Below are positions 272-4,973 of a DNA stretch of 64,000 bases, one piece after another. A program made the translations under genes and the position numbers. The stretch is taken from NCBI RefSeq assembly GCF_041320595.1, contig NZ_CP166625.1, positions 3,842,001-3,906,000 of the forward strand, in the 5' to 3' direction. The notes beneath the pieces were generated by a model. It searched no databases and was not told the origin of the DNA. It was given only the letters and a program-made list of their open reading frames with translations. Numbering within the stretch: the stretch's first letter is position 1; the number at the start of each line of letters is the position of its first letter. Source of the stretch: Pleomorphomonas sp. PLEO (GTDB lineage: Bacteria > Pseudomonadota > Alphaproteobacteria > Rhizobiales > Pleomorphomonadaceae).

Positions 272-1324
272 CTACTTCGCTACACATCCCGCAAGGCTTT
301 GCATCATCGAAATGACAGCCTGCCGGCGATCTAGGTTGATGCCATCTGTCTCGGCGACGATGCGATTCACCGTTTCCCAAGCGATGGCATAGCCATTGAG
401 GCGGTCAACACTCCCCCTCAGCGTCAGGCGCATGTGCTCGGAGAGCCAGCCGCGAGCCAGGTCGGCGCAAAGATCGAAACTGTCGCCCCCCTTGCGACCA
501 GCGACCGCGTCGGCAAAGCGATAAAGGCGCGGTCGGTCGAGACGCGGAAATCCGTCCACCAAGGTCTGAAACAGCCGATAGACATCGAGACCGTCGTTCT
601 CGATGCATTCGATCGCTCGCCGCACCGAGCCTTCTGCCAAGGCCGCCAGCGCCGGTTTGTCGCCCTCGGCGACCGTCAGGCCTAGCGACGTCAAGGCCGC
701 GTCGAGATCGTCGGGGCCGAGTGGATCAAGGGAAAGCCGCCGGCAGCGCGAGCGAATGGTCGGCAGCAGCCGACCCGGCGCGTGCGACAGCACCAGGAAC
801 AGCGACCGCTTTGGCGGCTCCTCCAGCATCTTCAGCAGCGCATTGGCCGCCGAGATATTCATGTCGTCGGCCGCGTCGACGATGGCGATGCGATAGCCGT
901 CGATACCGGCGGCATTGCCGAAGAAAGTCACCGTCCTGCGGATCTCGTCGACGGTCAGCTGTGTCTTGACCTTCTTGGTCTTGTCGTCCCAAGGGCGGCG
1001 GAGGTGCAAGAGATTGGGATGGGCGCCAGTCGCCACCATGGCGGCGACGCGATCGCTTGCCGGCAGCAGACCGGCGGTGGGCGGAGGCGCCTTCGTCGGA
1101 TCGGGGTGGCTCAGCACGAAGCGAGCGAAGCGGAAGGCCAGCGTGGCCTTGCCGATGCCCTTCGGTCCGGTCAAGAGAATGGCGTGGTGCAAGCGACCGC
1201 CGGTGTAGCCCTCATGCAGTTCGGCGGCAGCGACCGAATGGCCGATCAGCTCCGTCTGTTCGCGCGGCAGCGGCAACCCTTCCAGCCAATCGGCCTCGGT
1301 GGCGCGATCGTCCTCAATCGCCAC
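272..1324 (-). CDS. holB: DNA polymerase III subunit delta prime
   Basis: This is a clamp-loader AAA+ subunit of the replicative polymerase, 350 residues. A Walker A motif (GPKGIGKA, residues 53-60) and the SRC motif in TIRSRCRRL are visible, and ALLKMLEEPP is characteristic of delta prime/gamma proteins. The four-cysteine zinc module found in many clamp-loader subunits is not evident. The start is GTG, overlapping the 3' end of tmk by 11 bases, so the two are probably translationally coupled. The tmk-holB-metG order is common in alphaproteobacteria and supports the call. The C-terminal third is poorly conserved, as is usual for the family. Confidence 0.93.
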   Translation of the reverse strand: MAIEDDRATEADWLEGLPLPREQTELIGHSVAAAELHEGYTGGRLHHAILLTGPKGIGKATLAFRFARFVLSHPDPTKAPPPTAGLLPASDRVAAMVATGAHPNLLHLRRPWDDKTKKVKTQLTVDEIRRTVTFFGNAAGIDGYRIAIVDAADDMNISAANALLKMLEEPPKRSLFLVLSHAPGRLLPTIRSRCRRLSLDPLGPDDLDAALTSLGLTVAEGDKPALAALAEGSVRRAIECIENDGLDVYRLFQTLVDGFPRLDRPRLYRFADAVAGRKGGDSFDLCADLARGWLSEHMRLTLRGSVDRLNGYAIAWETVNRIVAETDGINLDRRQAVISMMQSLAGCVAK

Positions 1325-1973
1325 GGGCGCCCTCCCCGTCGAGCTTAAAGCGGCTTGTCACCAGCGCCAGGATTTCGGCGGACACCACGTCCTTCTCCCG
1401 GCTACCATCGACGACGACACAACGCTCAGGAAAGCGGTCGGCCAGCGCCAGGAAGCCTCGGCGGCGTGCTTCGTGTACGGCGACGGCGTCGCTTTCGAAC
1501 CGATCGGCGCCCTCGGAGCGATGACCAACCCGAGCGAGCCCGACCGACACTGGCACATCGATGATGATTGTGAGATCGGGAATCGTGGAGCCGATGGCGG
1601 CGTCGACAAGGCCATCGACAACATCGGCCGACAGTCCTCCAGCGGTCCCCTGATAGACGCGGCTCGAATCGGCGAAACGGTCACAGATCACGACGGCGCC
1701 GCGCCCGAGCGACGGTTCGATGAGCTCGGCAACATGGTCAATGCGGGCAGCGGCGAACAGATAGGCCTCACCGAGCACGCCAAGCGGCTTGACCCGGCCG
1801 GACAGGAGAAGACCGCGAATGGTCTCGGCCGCCGGCGAACCTCCCGGCTCGCGCGTCAGCACCACGTCGAGGCCACGCGCCTCCAGAGCCGCGGCTAGGC
1901 GCTTCGACTGTGTTGACTTGCCGGTGCCTTCGCCGCCCTCGAAAGTGACGAACCTACCCCTGGTGCCGCCCAC
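1314..1973 (-). CDS. tmk: Thymidylate kinase
   Basis: This kinase phosphorylates dTMP to dTDP in the cytoplasm for DNA synthesis. The 219-residue product has the P-loop GGEGTGKST (residues 13-21), the TREPGG motif (40-45) that binds dTMP, and the DRF segment (ICDRFADSSRVYQG). Length is normal for the family. The start is a GTG lying inside the last codons of the upstream dac gene (20-base overlap), and its stop overlaps the start of holB, so dac, tmk and holB form a tight transcription unit. Confidence 0.95.
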   Translation of the reverse strand: MGGTRGRFVTFEGGEGTGKSTQSKRLAAALEARGLDVVLTREPGGSPAAETIRGLLLSGRVKPLGVLGEAYLFAAARIDHVAELIEPSLGRGAVVICDRFADSSRVYQGTAGGLSADVVDGLVDAAIGSTIPDLTIIIDVPVSVGLARVGHRSEGADRFESDAVAVHEARRRGFLALADRFPERCVVVDGSREKDVVSAEILALVTSRFKLDGEGARGD

Positions 1974-3171
1974 GCAATGCTCCCAAGTTCACGATATCCT
2001 CGATCGATATAGACCCGATCGTCTTATACCACCAGCCGGCGAACATCTCGGTGAAGCCGTCGAGCGCCCGGTCCCGGATCTCGCCGCGTTCGACATCACC
2101 GGCCGCCTCAAGCGGGACCGATTGATAGAGACGATCGTCGACGCGCACCTCAAGACGGGCGATCGGGGTGCCGCGCACGATAGGGGCCGGCACAGGACCA
2201 TTGTAGACGACGGTGAGGCGAAACTTGGAACGATCGCCGGTTGGCAGCGTCAGATGCACCGGAGCGCCACCCGCCGAAATCACCGCCACATCCGGCGTAT
2301 TGCCGCCAAACACCTTCACCCGGCCGATCTCCGCGCCAGATGGGTAAATCTCGAAGCGGCCATATTCAGAGAACGCCCCCTCGACAAGCGCCTTGAGATC
2401 TTTGTCGCGATCAGCGAGCGCAGTGTAGCCGCTTGCCACCACGGTGATACGGCGATCGCCCCGTTTGGCCGACATCAGCGCCCCGAAACCATCCTTTTCA
2501 TCGAACGCCAGCATCATGCCGTCGACGCCCGGCAGCTCCTTCACAAAGCGGGTCTTGTTGGTCTGGTTGATCTTGTTCCAGAGAAAATCCGGTTGGCTAT
2601 AAAGCGCGTAGCGGTCGGGATACGTCGTCCGGACATAGGCAGCCAGCGCCAGCATGTCCGCCAGAGTGGTCTTTGCCTGGGGGTCAGGGTAGCCGGTCGG
2701 ATTGGCGAACCGGCTGTCCTTGAGACCAATCCGCGCCGCATAGGCGTTCATGCGTTCAGTGAAAGCCGCTTCGGACCCCGTCAAGCCCTCGGCCAACGCA
2801 ATAGCCGCGTCATTGGCATAGTCGACGACGAGACCGCGCAGAAGATCGCTCACCGGCACGAAGGACTTCACCGCCGCGAACATGGTGGTCACTCGGGCAG
2901 GCGCGCCGCCCGTTCGCCACGCATGTTCTGTGATGGGATAGAGCGTGGCATCGGTGACCTCACCCGTCTGCAGCGCTTCGAAAACCACGGCGGCGGTAAC
3001 AAGCTTGGCGAAATTGGCCGGCGCGAAAGGCTTGTTTTCGTCCTTGGTAATCAGCAGTGAGCCGGTGCTTTCGTCATGCAGCATCACCCGCGGCGCGGCG
3101 CTCTCAACTGCGACGGACGGGCCGGACATCAGGACAACAAACAGAAGGAACGGCAGAACGAACCCACGCAT
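1954..3171 (-). CDS. Penicillin-binding-protein-5-like protein lacking the D,D-carboxypeptidase catalytic motifs
   Basis: The 405-residue product has a signal peptide (residues 1 to about 22) and aligns along its length with DacC/DacF-type D-alanyl-D-alanine carboxypeptidases, including WRTGGAP, SEAAF and the C-terminal PBP5 beta domain. All three active-site motifs are altered. The SxxK motif reads N-F-A-K (53-56, Ser to Asn), the SxN motif reads Y-A-N (118-120, Ser to Tyr), and the KTG motif reads M-L-A (220-222). The frame is open and the flanking fold residues are kept, so this looks like a maintained pseudoenzyme rather than a decaying gene. I prefer the start at 3171, directly before the signal peptide; an in-frame ATG at 3207 is the alternative. 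It sits between rlpA and tmk. An enzymatic role is unlikely; a structural or peptidoglycan-binding role is inference. Confidence 0.85.
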   Translation of the reverse strand: MRGFVLPFLLFVVLMSGPSVAVESAAPRVMLHDESTGSLLITKDENKPFAPANFAKLVTAAVVFEALQTGEVTDATLYPITEHAWRTGGAPARVTTMFAAVKSFVPVSDLLRGLVVDYANDAAIALAEGLTGSEAAFTERMNAYAARIGLKDSRFANPTGYPDPQAKTTLADMLALAAYVRTTYPDRYALYSQPDFLWNKINQTNKTRFVKELPGVDGMMLAFDEKDGFGALMSAKRGDRRITVVASGYTALADRDKDLKALVEGAFSEYGRFEIYPSGAEIGRVKVFGGNTPDVAVISAGGAPVHLTLPTGDRSKFRLTVVYNGPVPAPIVRGTPIARLEVRVDDRLYQSVPLEAAGDVERGEIRDRALDGFTEMFAGWWYKTIGSISIEDIVNLGALRGRHQG

Positions 3172-3243: not shown

Positions 3244-4647
3244 TCAGCGCAGGAGACGGGCTCCGTCGATGCCGGCAGCCTCGGCAGCGGCAATCACCTG
3301 GTCCGGCGTCGTGGTCAGGGCCGTGAGACGCATCAGCTTCATATCGCGCCCGCCGACGGTGATGTCGGTAACAACAGGCGTACCGTAGGCCGAGAGCGCT
3401 GTGCTCACCTTGGCGACATTATCAGGGTTGCCGAACACGCCTAGCTGCACCACCGGCCCAGACGTGTCATGGACGGCAGACGGCTTCGACCCAGCCATAC
3501 CTTCAAGCTTATTGACCAGCTCCGACAGGCCCGTACCGGCTTCGATACCATCGACGGCCTGATAGGCTTGCGACACGCGGTCGGCCGCATAGCCAGAGGC
3601 ATTCGGCGGCAGAGGCGGTAACATGACATCGCCGAACATGACGGTCGGCTGATAGGTGTTGGCACTCGGGTCGGCGTAACTCATACGCGGCTGCGGCAAA
3701 GGCACCGCGGTCGGCGCAAGAACCGCGAACTGCGGCTGCGCCATGAAATCGGCTGGGTCTGCCGAAGCGATCGTGACGTAATCGAAGGTCTCGGCAGGAC
3801 GCGGCAGCGGCACAACGTCGATAGCCGGCGCTGGAATGCCGGCAACTTCCGCCGGCATGGTCGCGGCAGCCATCACCGCCGGAGCGACGGGAGCCATCCG
3901 CGCAGGCGCGGCCTTCGGCGCATCCGAACTGCCGAAGACATTCATCACGGACTTCACGCCCGGCAAGGATTCGACGGCGGCAAGCATCACGTTCGGCTTG
4001 TCTGCCTGCTGCTGATCCAGCGACGGGCCACGATAAGAGGCAAGCAGGAAGGCGGTATCATCGCCGTCGGTCGAAGCGGGACCGACATATTCGACGCGAA
4101 TCTTGGCCACACCCGCGGCCTTGACGCCGAGCATGTCCGCGGCGCGCTGCGACATGTCGAGGACGCGGTTGGAATGGAACGGGCCGCGATCATTGACGCG
4201 GACGATAACCGACCGGCCGGTCGCCAAGCTGGTCAGCCGGGCATAGGACGGCAGAGGCATGGTAGGATGGGCGGCCGAGATCGACGCGCTATCAAACACT
4301 TCGCCATTGGCGGTGCGGCGACCATGGAAATCGGTGCCATACCAGCTGGCAAGGCCGACGACCTTATAATCAGGGTCGATCCGCGGAAAATAGGTTTTTC
4401 CGGCAATCTGATAAGGCTTGCCGACCATGGCACGACCGCCACCCTTGGGTACGGGGTCGCCCATCGCCACGACGCGTGGGCTTGGCGCAACGCCGTACTT
4501 AGGATCGATCTTTGCCTTGGCGAACTTGAGAGGGGCCTGTTCGGTTGTTCCGCAGCCCGCTACGCCGATCGCCAAAGCCAGTGATGTGGACATCACCGTC
4601 AGGAGCGTTTTCGTCGTCGAGCGCGTGCCGTTTCGCCCAGCAGTCAT
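3244..4647 (-). CDS. rlpA: RlpA-like septal lytic transglycosylase/SPOR lipoprotein
   Basis: RlpA proteins are outer-membrane lipoproteins that cleave glycan strands lacking stem peptides, usually at the division septum. The 467-residue product has a lipoprotein signal with lipobox V-A-G-C (Cys32) and a double-psi beta-barrel domain (residues about 95-180, with GLASWYG and VRVNDRGPF). The likely catalytic residues His127 (AAHP) and Asp153 (VND) are present. A Pro/Ala-rich linker follows, and a C-terminal SPOR domain occupies about residues 390-467. An in-frame ATG at 4746 exists, but the start at 4647 puts the signal peptide at the N-terminus. It heads the minus-strand run into dac, tmk and holB, 72 bases before the dac start. 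Confidence 0.9.
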   Translation of the reverse strand: MTAGRNGTRSTTKTLLTVMSTSLALAIGVAGCGTTEQAPLKFAKAKIDPKYGVAPSPRVVAMGDPVPKGGGRAMVGKPYQIAGKTYFPRIDPDYKVVGLASWYGTDFHGRRTANGEVFDSASISAAHPTMPLPSYARLTSLATGRSVIVRVNDRGPFHSNRVLDMSQRAADMLGVKAAGVAKIRVEYVGPASTDGDDTAFLLASYRGPSLDQQQADKPNVMLAAVESLPGVKSVMNVFGSSDAPKAAPARMAPVAPAVMAAATMPAEVAGIPAPAIDVVPLPRPAETFDYVTIASADPADFMAQPQFAVLAPTAVPLPQPRMSYADPSANTYQPTVMFGDVMLPPLPPNASGYAADRVSQAYQAVDGIEAGTGLSELVNKLEGMAGSKPSAVHDTSGPVVQLGVFGNPDNVAKVSTALSAYGTPVVTDITVGGRDMKLMRLTALTTTPDQVIAAAEAAGIDGARLLR

Positions 4648-4973
4648 TCCATACGCCTTGCCGTTTGAGCACTCATCACCACCGCGACTCCAGCAGGCCG
4701 AAAGCCTTCCGGAGCCCTTCCAAAACGAAGCGTTGCACCGAAGCACATTTGCTCACTTTAGAACACCATCCCTAACCTCTTGTTAAAGATGAGATGGCGG
4801 CTCGACGATGAATCCCCTGGTCAATCCCTAGCGCCCGACCTCCTGTTCAGGAAATCGGCAGCATGCGATTTGTACATTCGTTCGGCAGGTCCGTAAAGGC
4901 AGCAAAGGAGGTGTCCGGCGGGTTTCATACACACCAAATGTAGTATTTAATCGTTATAGCCCCCAACGACTCG
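4648..4973. other. Intergenic region between rlpA and parC
   Basis: This 326-base stretch lies upstream of rlpA and downstream of parC, both on the minus strand. No convincing ORF, RNA gene or strong terminator hairpin was seen. The AT-richer part around 4745-4795 is where the rlpA promoter would be expected. A TTAACA-like hexamer read on the minus strand there could be a -35 element, but the match is weak. Confidence 0.4.

Follow-up and report, generated by a model that had tools for sequence, protein, structure and literature searches.

A PBP5-type protein without its catalytic motifs is probably kept by selection in Pleomorphomonas and its relatives

PBP5-type proteins are known for the trimming of pentapeptides and for their part in cell shape. 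The closest described relatives of the protein discussed here are PBP5 and PBP6 (DacA/DacC; 4k91, 3it9, 1nzo). Our protein is encoded by a gene, here called dac, of Pleomorphomonas sp. PLEO, whose genome is a single contig (NZ_CP166625.1) of 5,476,363 bases. The gene lies in the window, by which we mean the whole stretch of 64,000 nucleotides that was analysed (contig positions 3,842,001 to 3,906,000). The window protein resembles PBP5 and PBP6 in domain order, predicted fold, C-terminal end and conserved structural residues. It differs from them in the catalytic serine, the serine of SxN, all of KTG and the positions of Ser87 and Arg198, both of which a docking paper lists as active-site residues of PBP5 (PMC5512857).

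Two further systems invite comparison. PBP5(S44G) and PBP6b(S63A) of E. coli, inactivated in the laboratory, are likewise PBP5-type proteins without a nucleophile (PMC4916385). However, these are single substitutions which disturb cell shape, whereas the window protein has lost the serine of SxN and the residues of KTG as well. The degenerate LytM factors EnvC and NlpD, including those of Agrobacterium, are inactive peptidoglycan hydrolase homologues that are kept as cell-wall factors (PMC8416486). They belong, however, to a metallopeptidase family and not to S11, and the partner enzyme of the window protein is only hypothetical. In the titles and abstract openings of the open-licence literature searched, we found no description of an S11/PBP5 pseudoenzyme.

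Catalytic motifs and selection in the window's family

The reading frame comprises 405 codons without an internal stop. Both Pfam domains score above the gathering score, Peptidase_S11 (PF00768) with E = 4.2e-44 and PBP5_C (PF07943) with E = 1.1e-10. The predicted structure (mean local confidence, pLDDT, 78.1; overall fold score, pTM, 0.75) covers both PBP5 domains, as a model, and has PBP5 and PBP6 as its top structural matches. An earlier note on this DNA, made from the letters alone, had claimed an intact frame and homology to PBP5-type proteins and had proposed the comparison of a model with PBP5; on the frame and the homology it was right. The features of the gene are listed below, with counts that refer to the window's family, Pleomorphomonadaceae (f1; 20 genomes from six genera, the window's genome included).

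1954..3171, minus strand: dac-type pseudoenzyme of PBP5 architecture, 405 residues (open reading frame, Pfam, orthologues)
3106..3171, minus strand: hydrophobic N-terminus resembling a signal peptide, residues 1-22 (read by eye)
2437..3105, minus strand: Peptidase_S11 domain, residues 23-245 (Pfam and predicted fold)
3004..3015, minus strand: NFAK at the SxxK position, residues 53-56 (N, F and K each in 20/20)
2887..2889, minus strand: Thr95 at the equivalent of PBP5 Ser87 (alignment; T in 20/20)
2812..2820, minus strand: YAN at the SxN position, residues 118-120 (Y in 19/20, H once; N120 in 20/20)
2554..2556, minus strand: Lys206 at the equivalent of PBP5 Arg198 (alignment; K in 20/20)
2506..2514, minus strand: MLA at the KTG position, residues 220-222 (M/V/I/S, L/V/M, A in 20/20)
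2086..2358, minus strand: PBP5_C domain, residues 272-362 (Pfam)
2020..2085, minus strand: C-terminal stretch, residues 363-384 (363-381 aligned to the C-terminus of E. coli PBP5; model helix 365-378)

The alignment to E. coli PBP5 places NFAK, YAN and MLA on SxxK, SxN and KTG, exact to the base where the earlier note had put them. Its statement that all three motifs are lost stands for five of the seven motif residues (S53N, S118Y, K220M, T221L, G222A), but Lys56 and Asn120 are kept, and two more cleft positions (95 and 206) are also altered. None of the three motifs of an active S11 D,D-carboxypeptidase, the serine-nucleophile SxxK, SxN and KTG, is thus intact. In the whole protein S..K does not occur, and a scan for [KRH][TS]G finds only an RTG at residue 86, which is not the KTG site. 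A frameshift or an alternative catalytic motif is ruled out by the open frame and the absence of S..K. The best score with the NCBIfam equivalogs for DacA/DacC/DacD is 143.3 bits against a cut-off of 610, which has little bearing on activity since this genome's intact paralogues fail too. We note that class C beta-lactamases and S12 peptidases have the letters YAN as their second motif, yet the serine nucleophile is missing here.

The change is not private to this strain. All 20 family genomes have the dead motif state in an orthologue of 50-100% protein identity at an rlpA-dac-tmk-holB locus; the closest named ones, from P. carboxyditropha and P. oryzae, share 89% protein identity. The nucleophile is Asn in every genome, SxN reads YAN in 19 and HAN in one, and KTG reads [MVIS][LVM]A throughout. 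Of the residues whose conservation the earlier note wanted checked, Asn and the final Ala are conserved in all 20 genomes and Tyr in 19, and the first two letters of MLA vary. The other 19 genomes have open frames of 390-517 residues (L024 is cut by a contig end).

The ratio of nonsynonymous to synonymous substitution (dN/dS), also a check proposed earlier, was computed among nine members of the genus (36 pairs with NG86, 30 with YN00). At about 0.1 it is like that of tmk: the medians with NG86 and YN00 are 0.098 and 0.050 for dac, 0.090 and 0.048 for tmk, 0.050 and 0.026 for holB and 0.128 and 0.080 for rlpA. For most of the pairs listed, NG86 gives a high dS, between about 0.5 and 1.2; the close pair L006/L011 has dN 0.013 and dS 0.117. 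Because all family genomes share the state and dN/dS is about 0.1, chance is excluded, and purifying selection acts on the catalytically empty form.

The window genome encodes two further S11 proteins, whose motifs are intact. One of them has a SPOR domain, and Pfam finds PBP5_C in neither. Paralogues from the family and from other genomes with degraded copies are intact in 41 of 42 rows, or at 38 of 39 places if the repeats L038/L205, L039/L208 and L040/L209 are counted once. The exception, L232, has SLTK/SLK/KSG in a frame of 343 residues, and its alignment is provisional. Since the paralogues are nearly all intact, the motif loss looks specific to the rlpA-tmk locus. The paralogue with SPOR (L002:775-2694, minus strand), which has this domain at its C-terminus and all motifs intact, is a candidate septal carboxypeptidase. 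The earlier idea of a selected pseudoenzyme is supported by the fixation in the family, the purifying selection and the intact paralogues, and we are very confident that the protein is both dead and selected.

The locus in other families of the order

We read the syntenic copy in 159 genomes from 46 families of the order; the sampling was not random, and many families are represented by one genome. The sample comprised the best-scoring among the listed matches of 297 genomes searched, at least one genome from unlisted families, congeners of degraded and of some intact families, and all 20 genomes of the window's family. Copies without a neighbouring rlpA or tmk were left out of the counts (the best matches in f4, f17, f26, f32 and f45 and one f22 row), as were the f51 genome G138 with its weak best match and the unreadable motifs of L179 (f48) and L272 (f42). 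A copy was called degraded if at least one of six residues was changed: Ser or Lys in SxxK, Ser or Asn in SxN, Lys or Gly in KTG.

By this definition 77 of the 159 genomes have a degraded copy. In the sample eight families are fully degraded (f1, f12, f21, f23, f24, f34, f41, f50), four partly (f13, f15, f30, f35), and 34 are intact throughout. In other orders of the class the copy is intact in 28 of 28 genomes, the best-scoring of 117 with a match. The earlier note had named intact orthologues at the same locus, with random changes only here, as evidence that would speak against it; nothing of the kind is found within the family, but intact orthologues do occupy this locus in other families.

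The changes are specific to lineages: S..L/IAN/VIG in f12, SMAT/SGG/KTG in f34, AMAK/AGN/STG in f15, S..K/NAN/GAG or VAG in f41 and SMSK/NAN/KPG in f30. That of f35 is mild on paper, KTG to MTG alone in one of ten genomes. Four more degraded loci (Neorhizobium lilium, a metagenome-assembled Rhizobium genome and two Rhizobiales) group with f23 in both trees described below and may repeat f23 members. The Rhizobiaceae-like orthologues (L014-L017 and f23) are like the window protein in locus and in having degraded motifs. They differ in that SxxK is kept in 15 of 15, the letters of SxN and KTG drift, and no cleft column is newly fixed.

We counted changes of state on two trees, both of them quick searches. 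The tree of the protein itself, with the motif columns removed, has 129 rows, of which 80 are intact and 49 degraded; nine near-duplicates, three partial rows and every odd-numbered outgroup row were omitted. It requires at least six changes, four of them forced by starred branches. The tree built from the neighbouring Tmk, HolB and RlpA has 126 rows (78 intact, 48 degraded) and requires at least ten, six of them forced; in it the outgroup row L130 is misplaced on the wrong side. There the window's family has the intact f28 as its sister group (support 92, without a star). Such counts by themselves do not separate loss from gain, but a regain of the catalytic triad is unlikely. A single loss in the order is unsupported by the neighbour-gene tree. 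The own-protein tree places the degraded f15 rows with f50 and not with f15, and it may be distorted by shared fast evolution, gene transfer or convergence. Both f15 (L065, L079, L125, L243-L245) and f50 (L119, L120, L251, L252) have Ala at 53, 95 and 118; as the neighbour tree does not group them, transfer of this gene alone or convergence could be at work.

Which residues are lost was read from 71 columns whose residue is shared by at least 88% of 93 intact copies, with retention taken across the 12 degraded families. The four lowest values are those of two KTG residues (K 0.17, T 0.40), of the SxN serine (0.21) and of position 95 (0.24). Position 206 stands at 0.55, and the nucleophile (0.66) and its lysine (0.83) are kept more often. 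The other 64 columns are retained to 76-95% in every degraded family. It appears that the cleft was abandoned mainly on its substrate side. The peptidoglycan binding that the earlier note had suggested is thus disfavoured, at least by way of the ordinary cleft.

A column was called newly fixed if it is nearly invariant in a family and its residue is rare (<10%) in 108 intact copies. The window's family has 14 such columns (17 in a looser first pass), and seven of them fall within the 14 cleft positions (N53, V94, T95, Y118, K206, A222, D224; Fisher p = 7.5e-8); F54 and T207 flank newly fixed cleft columns. Column 94 matches Ser86 of PBP5 in one alignment and not in another; without it, six newly fixed columns lie among 13 cleft positions (p = 1.6e-6). 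With published cleft positions only, the numbers are five among nine (p = 4.9e-6), or four among eight without column 94 (p = 9.6e-5). In contrast, f41 and f23 have no newly fixed column in the cleft, and several of their motif letters drift. The divergence of f41 is similar to that of f1 (mean pairwise distance 1.59 versus 1.51).

Neighbouring genes

3244..4746, minus strand: rlpA with a DPBB domain, upstream neighbour (Pfam)
1314..1973, minus strand: tmk (dTMP kinase), next gene downstream; the GTG start listed for it lies 20 bp within the end of dac (1954-1973)
272..1324, minus strand: holB (DNA polymerase III delta'; open reading frame list and profile search)

An rlpA on the same strand adjoins dac in 20 of 20 family genomes and tmk does so in 19; the exception is L024, whose contig ends within the gene (the same gene as L008). 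The order rlpA-dac-tmk-holB is widely kept, and intact copies of other orders have it too, so the adjacency of rlpA is no evidence of a partnership; by its position alone RlpA is a candidate partner. The tmk start within dac makes translational coupling possible. In RlpA, DPBB is the only domain above the Pfam cut-off. By eye, a SPOR-like tail is seen in f1, f12 (L052) and the outgroup L126, and none in the RlpA frames examined from f13, f19, f23, f28, f34 and f41.

Four f17 genomes and one f4 genome (L278, L281-L284; 5/5 examined) have no dac match between rlpA and tmk at E = 1e-3. As rlpA directly precedes tmk in them, the operon does not force the retention of dac. These loci are the end point of a natural series of intact, dead and missing copies. 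Three f45 genomes also have no dac match before tmk; their upstream sequence is shorter and rlpA was not seen there.

Possible reasons for keeping a dead copy

We suggest that the window protein is a PBP5-type protein kept by selection for a non-catalytic function, periplasmic, probably anchored in the inner membrane and incapable of serine D,D-peptidase chemistry, and on the sequences at hand we consider this likely. The sequences show the altered motifs, the selection, the recurrence, the intact paralogues and the refixed cleft; we infer the inactivity, location, partner and regulation of the protein. The C-terminal end of E. coli PBP5 is its membrane anchor, and the C-terminal stretch of the window protein may serve likewise. 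The PBP5 protein of this locus would already have had a second, non-catalytic role, an assumption that we favour with some reserve, so that dead copies were retained. The two intact S11 paralogues, the one with SPOR among them, would supply D,D-carboxypeptidase chemistry. In f1 the cleft (N53, F54, K56, T95, Y118, N120, K206, T207, A222, D224) would have been rebuilt and fixed anew as a binding or structural site; that this pocket holds a ligand or partner we propose tentatively. As an envelope factor, the protein could bind and steer another cell-wall enzyme as degenerate LytM factors do for amidases, in f1 probably through the rebuilt cleft; by this analogy it is perhaps a regulator of a peptidoglycan enzyme.

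Several points speak against this proposal. The kept Lys56 and Asn120 make some different chemistry conceivable, and residues 91-95 of the model have a pLDDT below 50. The absence of dac in the f17 and f4 genomes means that a second role, if any, is dispensable there. The Fisher test ignores shared descent, for which reason the contrast with f41 outweighs the p value. Fixed cleft changes, mostly to alanine, also occur in f15 and f50 (p = 0.003 and 0.002, with only six and four genomes), so that f1 is not unique. When distances within families are set against those of the neighbours, the median ratio is 1.58 for nine degraded groups versus 1.13 for 14 intact ones (Mann-Whitney p = 0.025), with opposite cases in the degraded f34 (0.50) and the intact f49 (1.95); since degraded groups evolve faster, constraint is partly relaxed. 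In an E. coli mutant strain, finally, expression of inactive PBP5(S44G) worsened the shape defects (PMC4916385).

The faster evolution would also fit a redundant enzyme on its way to loss, whose presence is a snapshot. In f23, f41 and to some extent f34 the letters of the motifs drift, and dac is gone from the f17 and f4 loci. We nevertheless consider such decay quite unlikely: dN/dS in the window's genus is near that of tmk, the frames are open across six genera, the other 64 conserved columns are retained in each degraded family, and f1 has newly fixed cleft residues. Still less probable, indeed hardly credible, is that the frame is kept solely to carry translation into tmk and holB. The overlapping tmk start and the widely kept gene order agree with it, but coupling would not select amino acids, unlike the dN/dS seen, and the f17 and f4 genomes manage with rlpA directly before tmk.

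The dead cleft might instead hold stem pentapeptides as a decoy, shielding them from other enzymes or delivering them. The fold is predicted to be intact, and Asn120 and Lys56 are kept in 20/20 family genomes. However, it is not the nucleophile that is lost most often. The residues concerned are two of KTG (K and T), the SxN serine and the one at the Ser87 position, all of which we take to have substrate-side roles, and G of KTG is Ala throughout the family. As PBP5(S44G) made cells more misshapen, a dead protein that still grips pentapeptides might even be harmful. A decoy thus seems unlikely. A new hydrolase or esterase that uses Lys56, Tyr118 and Asn120 differently is very improbable; position 118 is Tyr in 19 of 20 family genomes, but position 53 is Asn and not Ser in all 20, and the window protein has no S..K anywhere.

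We return to a kept, non-catalytic protein. In its widest form, which we put forward only as a possibility and more hesitantly than the ligand or partner of the pocket, a catalysis-independent function extends across the order (Hyphomicrobiales/Rhizobiales): the active site was abandoned at least six and probably at least ten times while the protein was kept, and in Pleomorphomonas and its relatives the cleft was rebuilt as a new binding site, giving a new cell-wall receptor or regulator on the penicillin-binding-protein fold.

In A. tumefaciens, a 'dac' gene, which may be the copy of this locus or another S11 paralogue, is synthetically essential without the group-3 LD-transpeptidases (PMC11527210), and four putative D,D-carboxypeptidase genes are annotated in S. 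meliloti (PMC7327166). In the portions of the literature searched we found no mention of lost catalytic motifs in either case. An annotation as D-Ala-D-Ala carboxypeptidase at this locus may name a protein incapable of that activity, in Rhizobiaceae-like lineages as well, which bears on how genetic screens reporting a single 'dac' gene are read. With its natural series of intact, dead but kept, and absent copies, the locus allows the protein to be told apart from its chemistry and a non-catalytic role to be tested directly.
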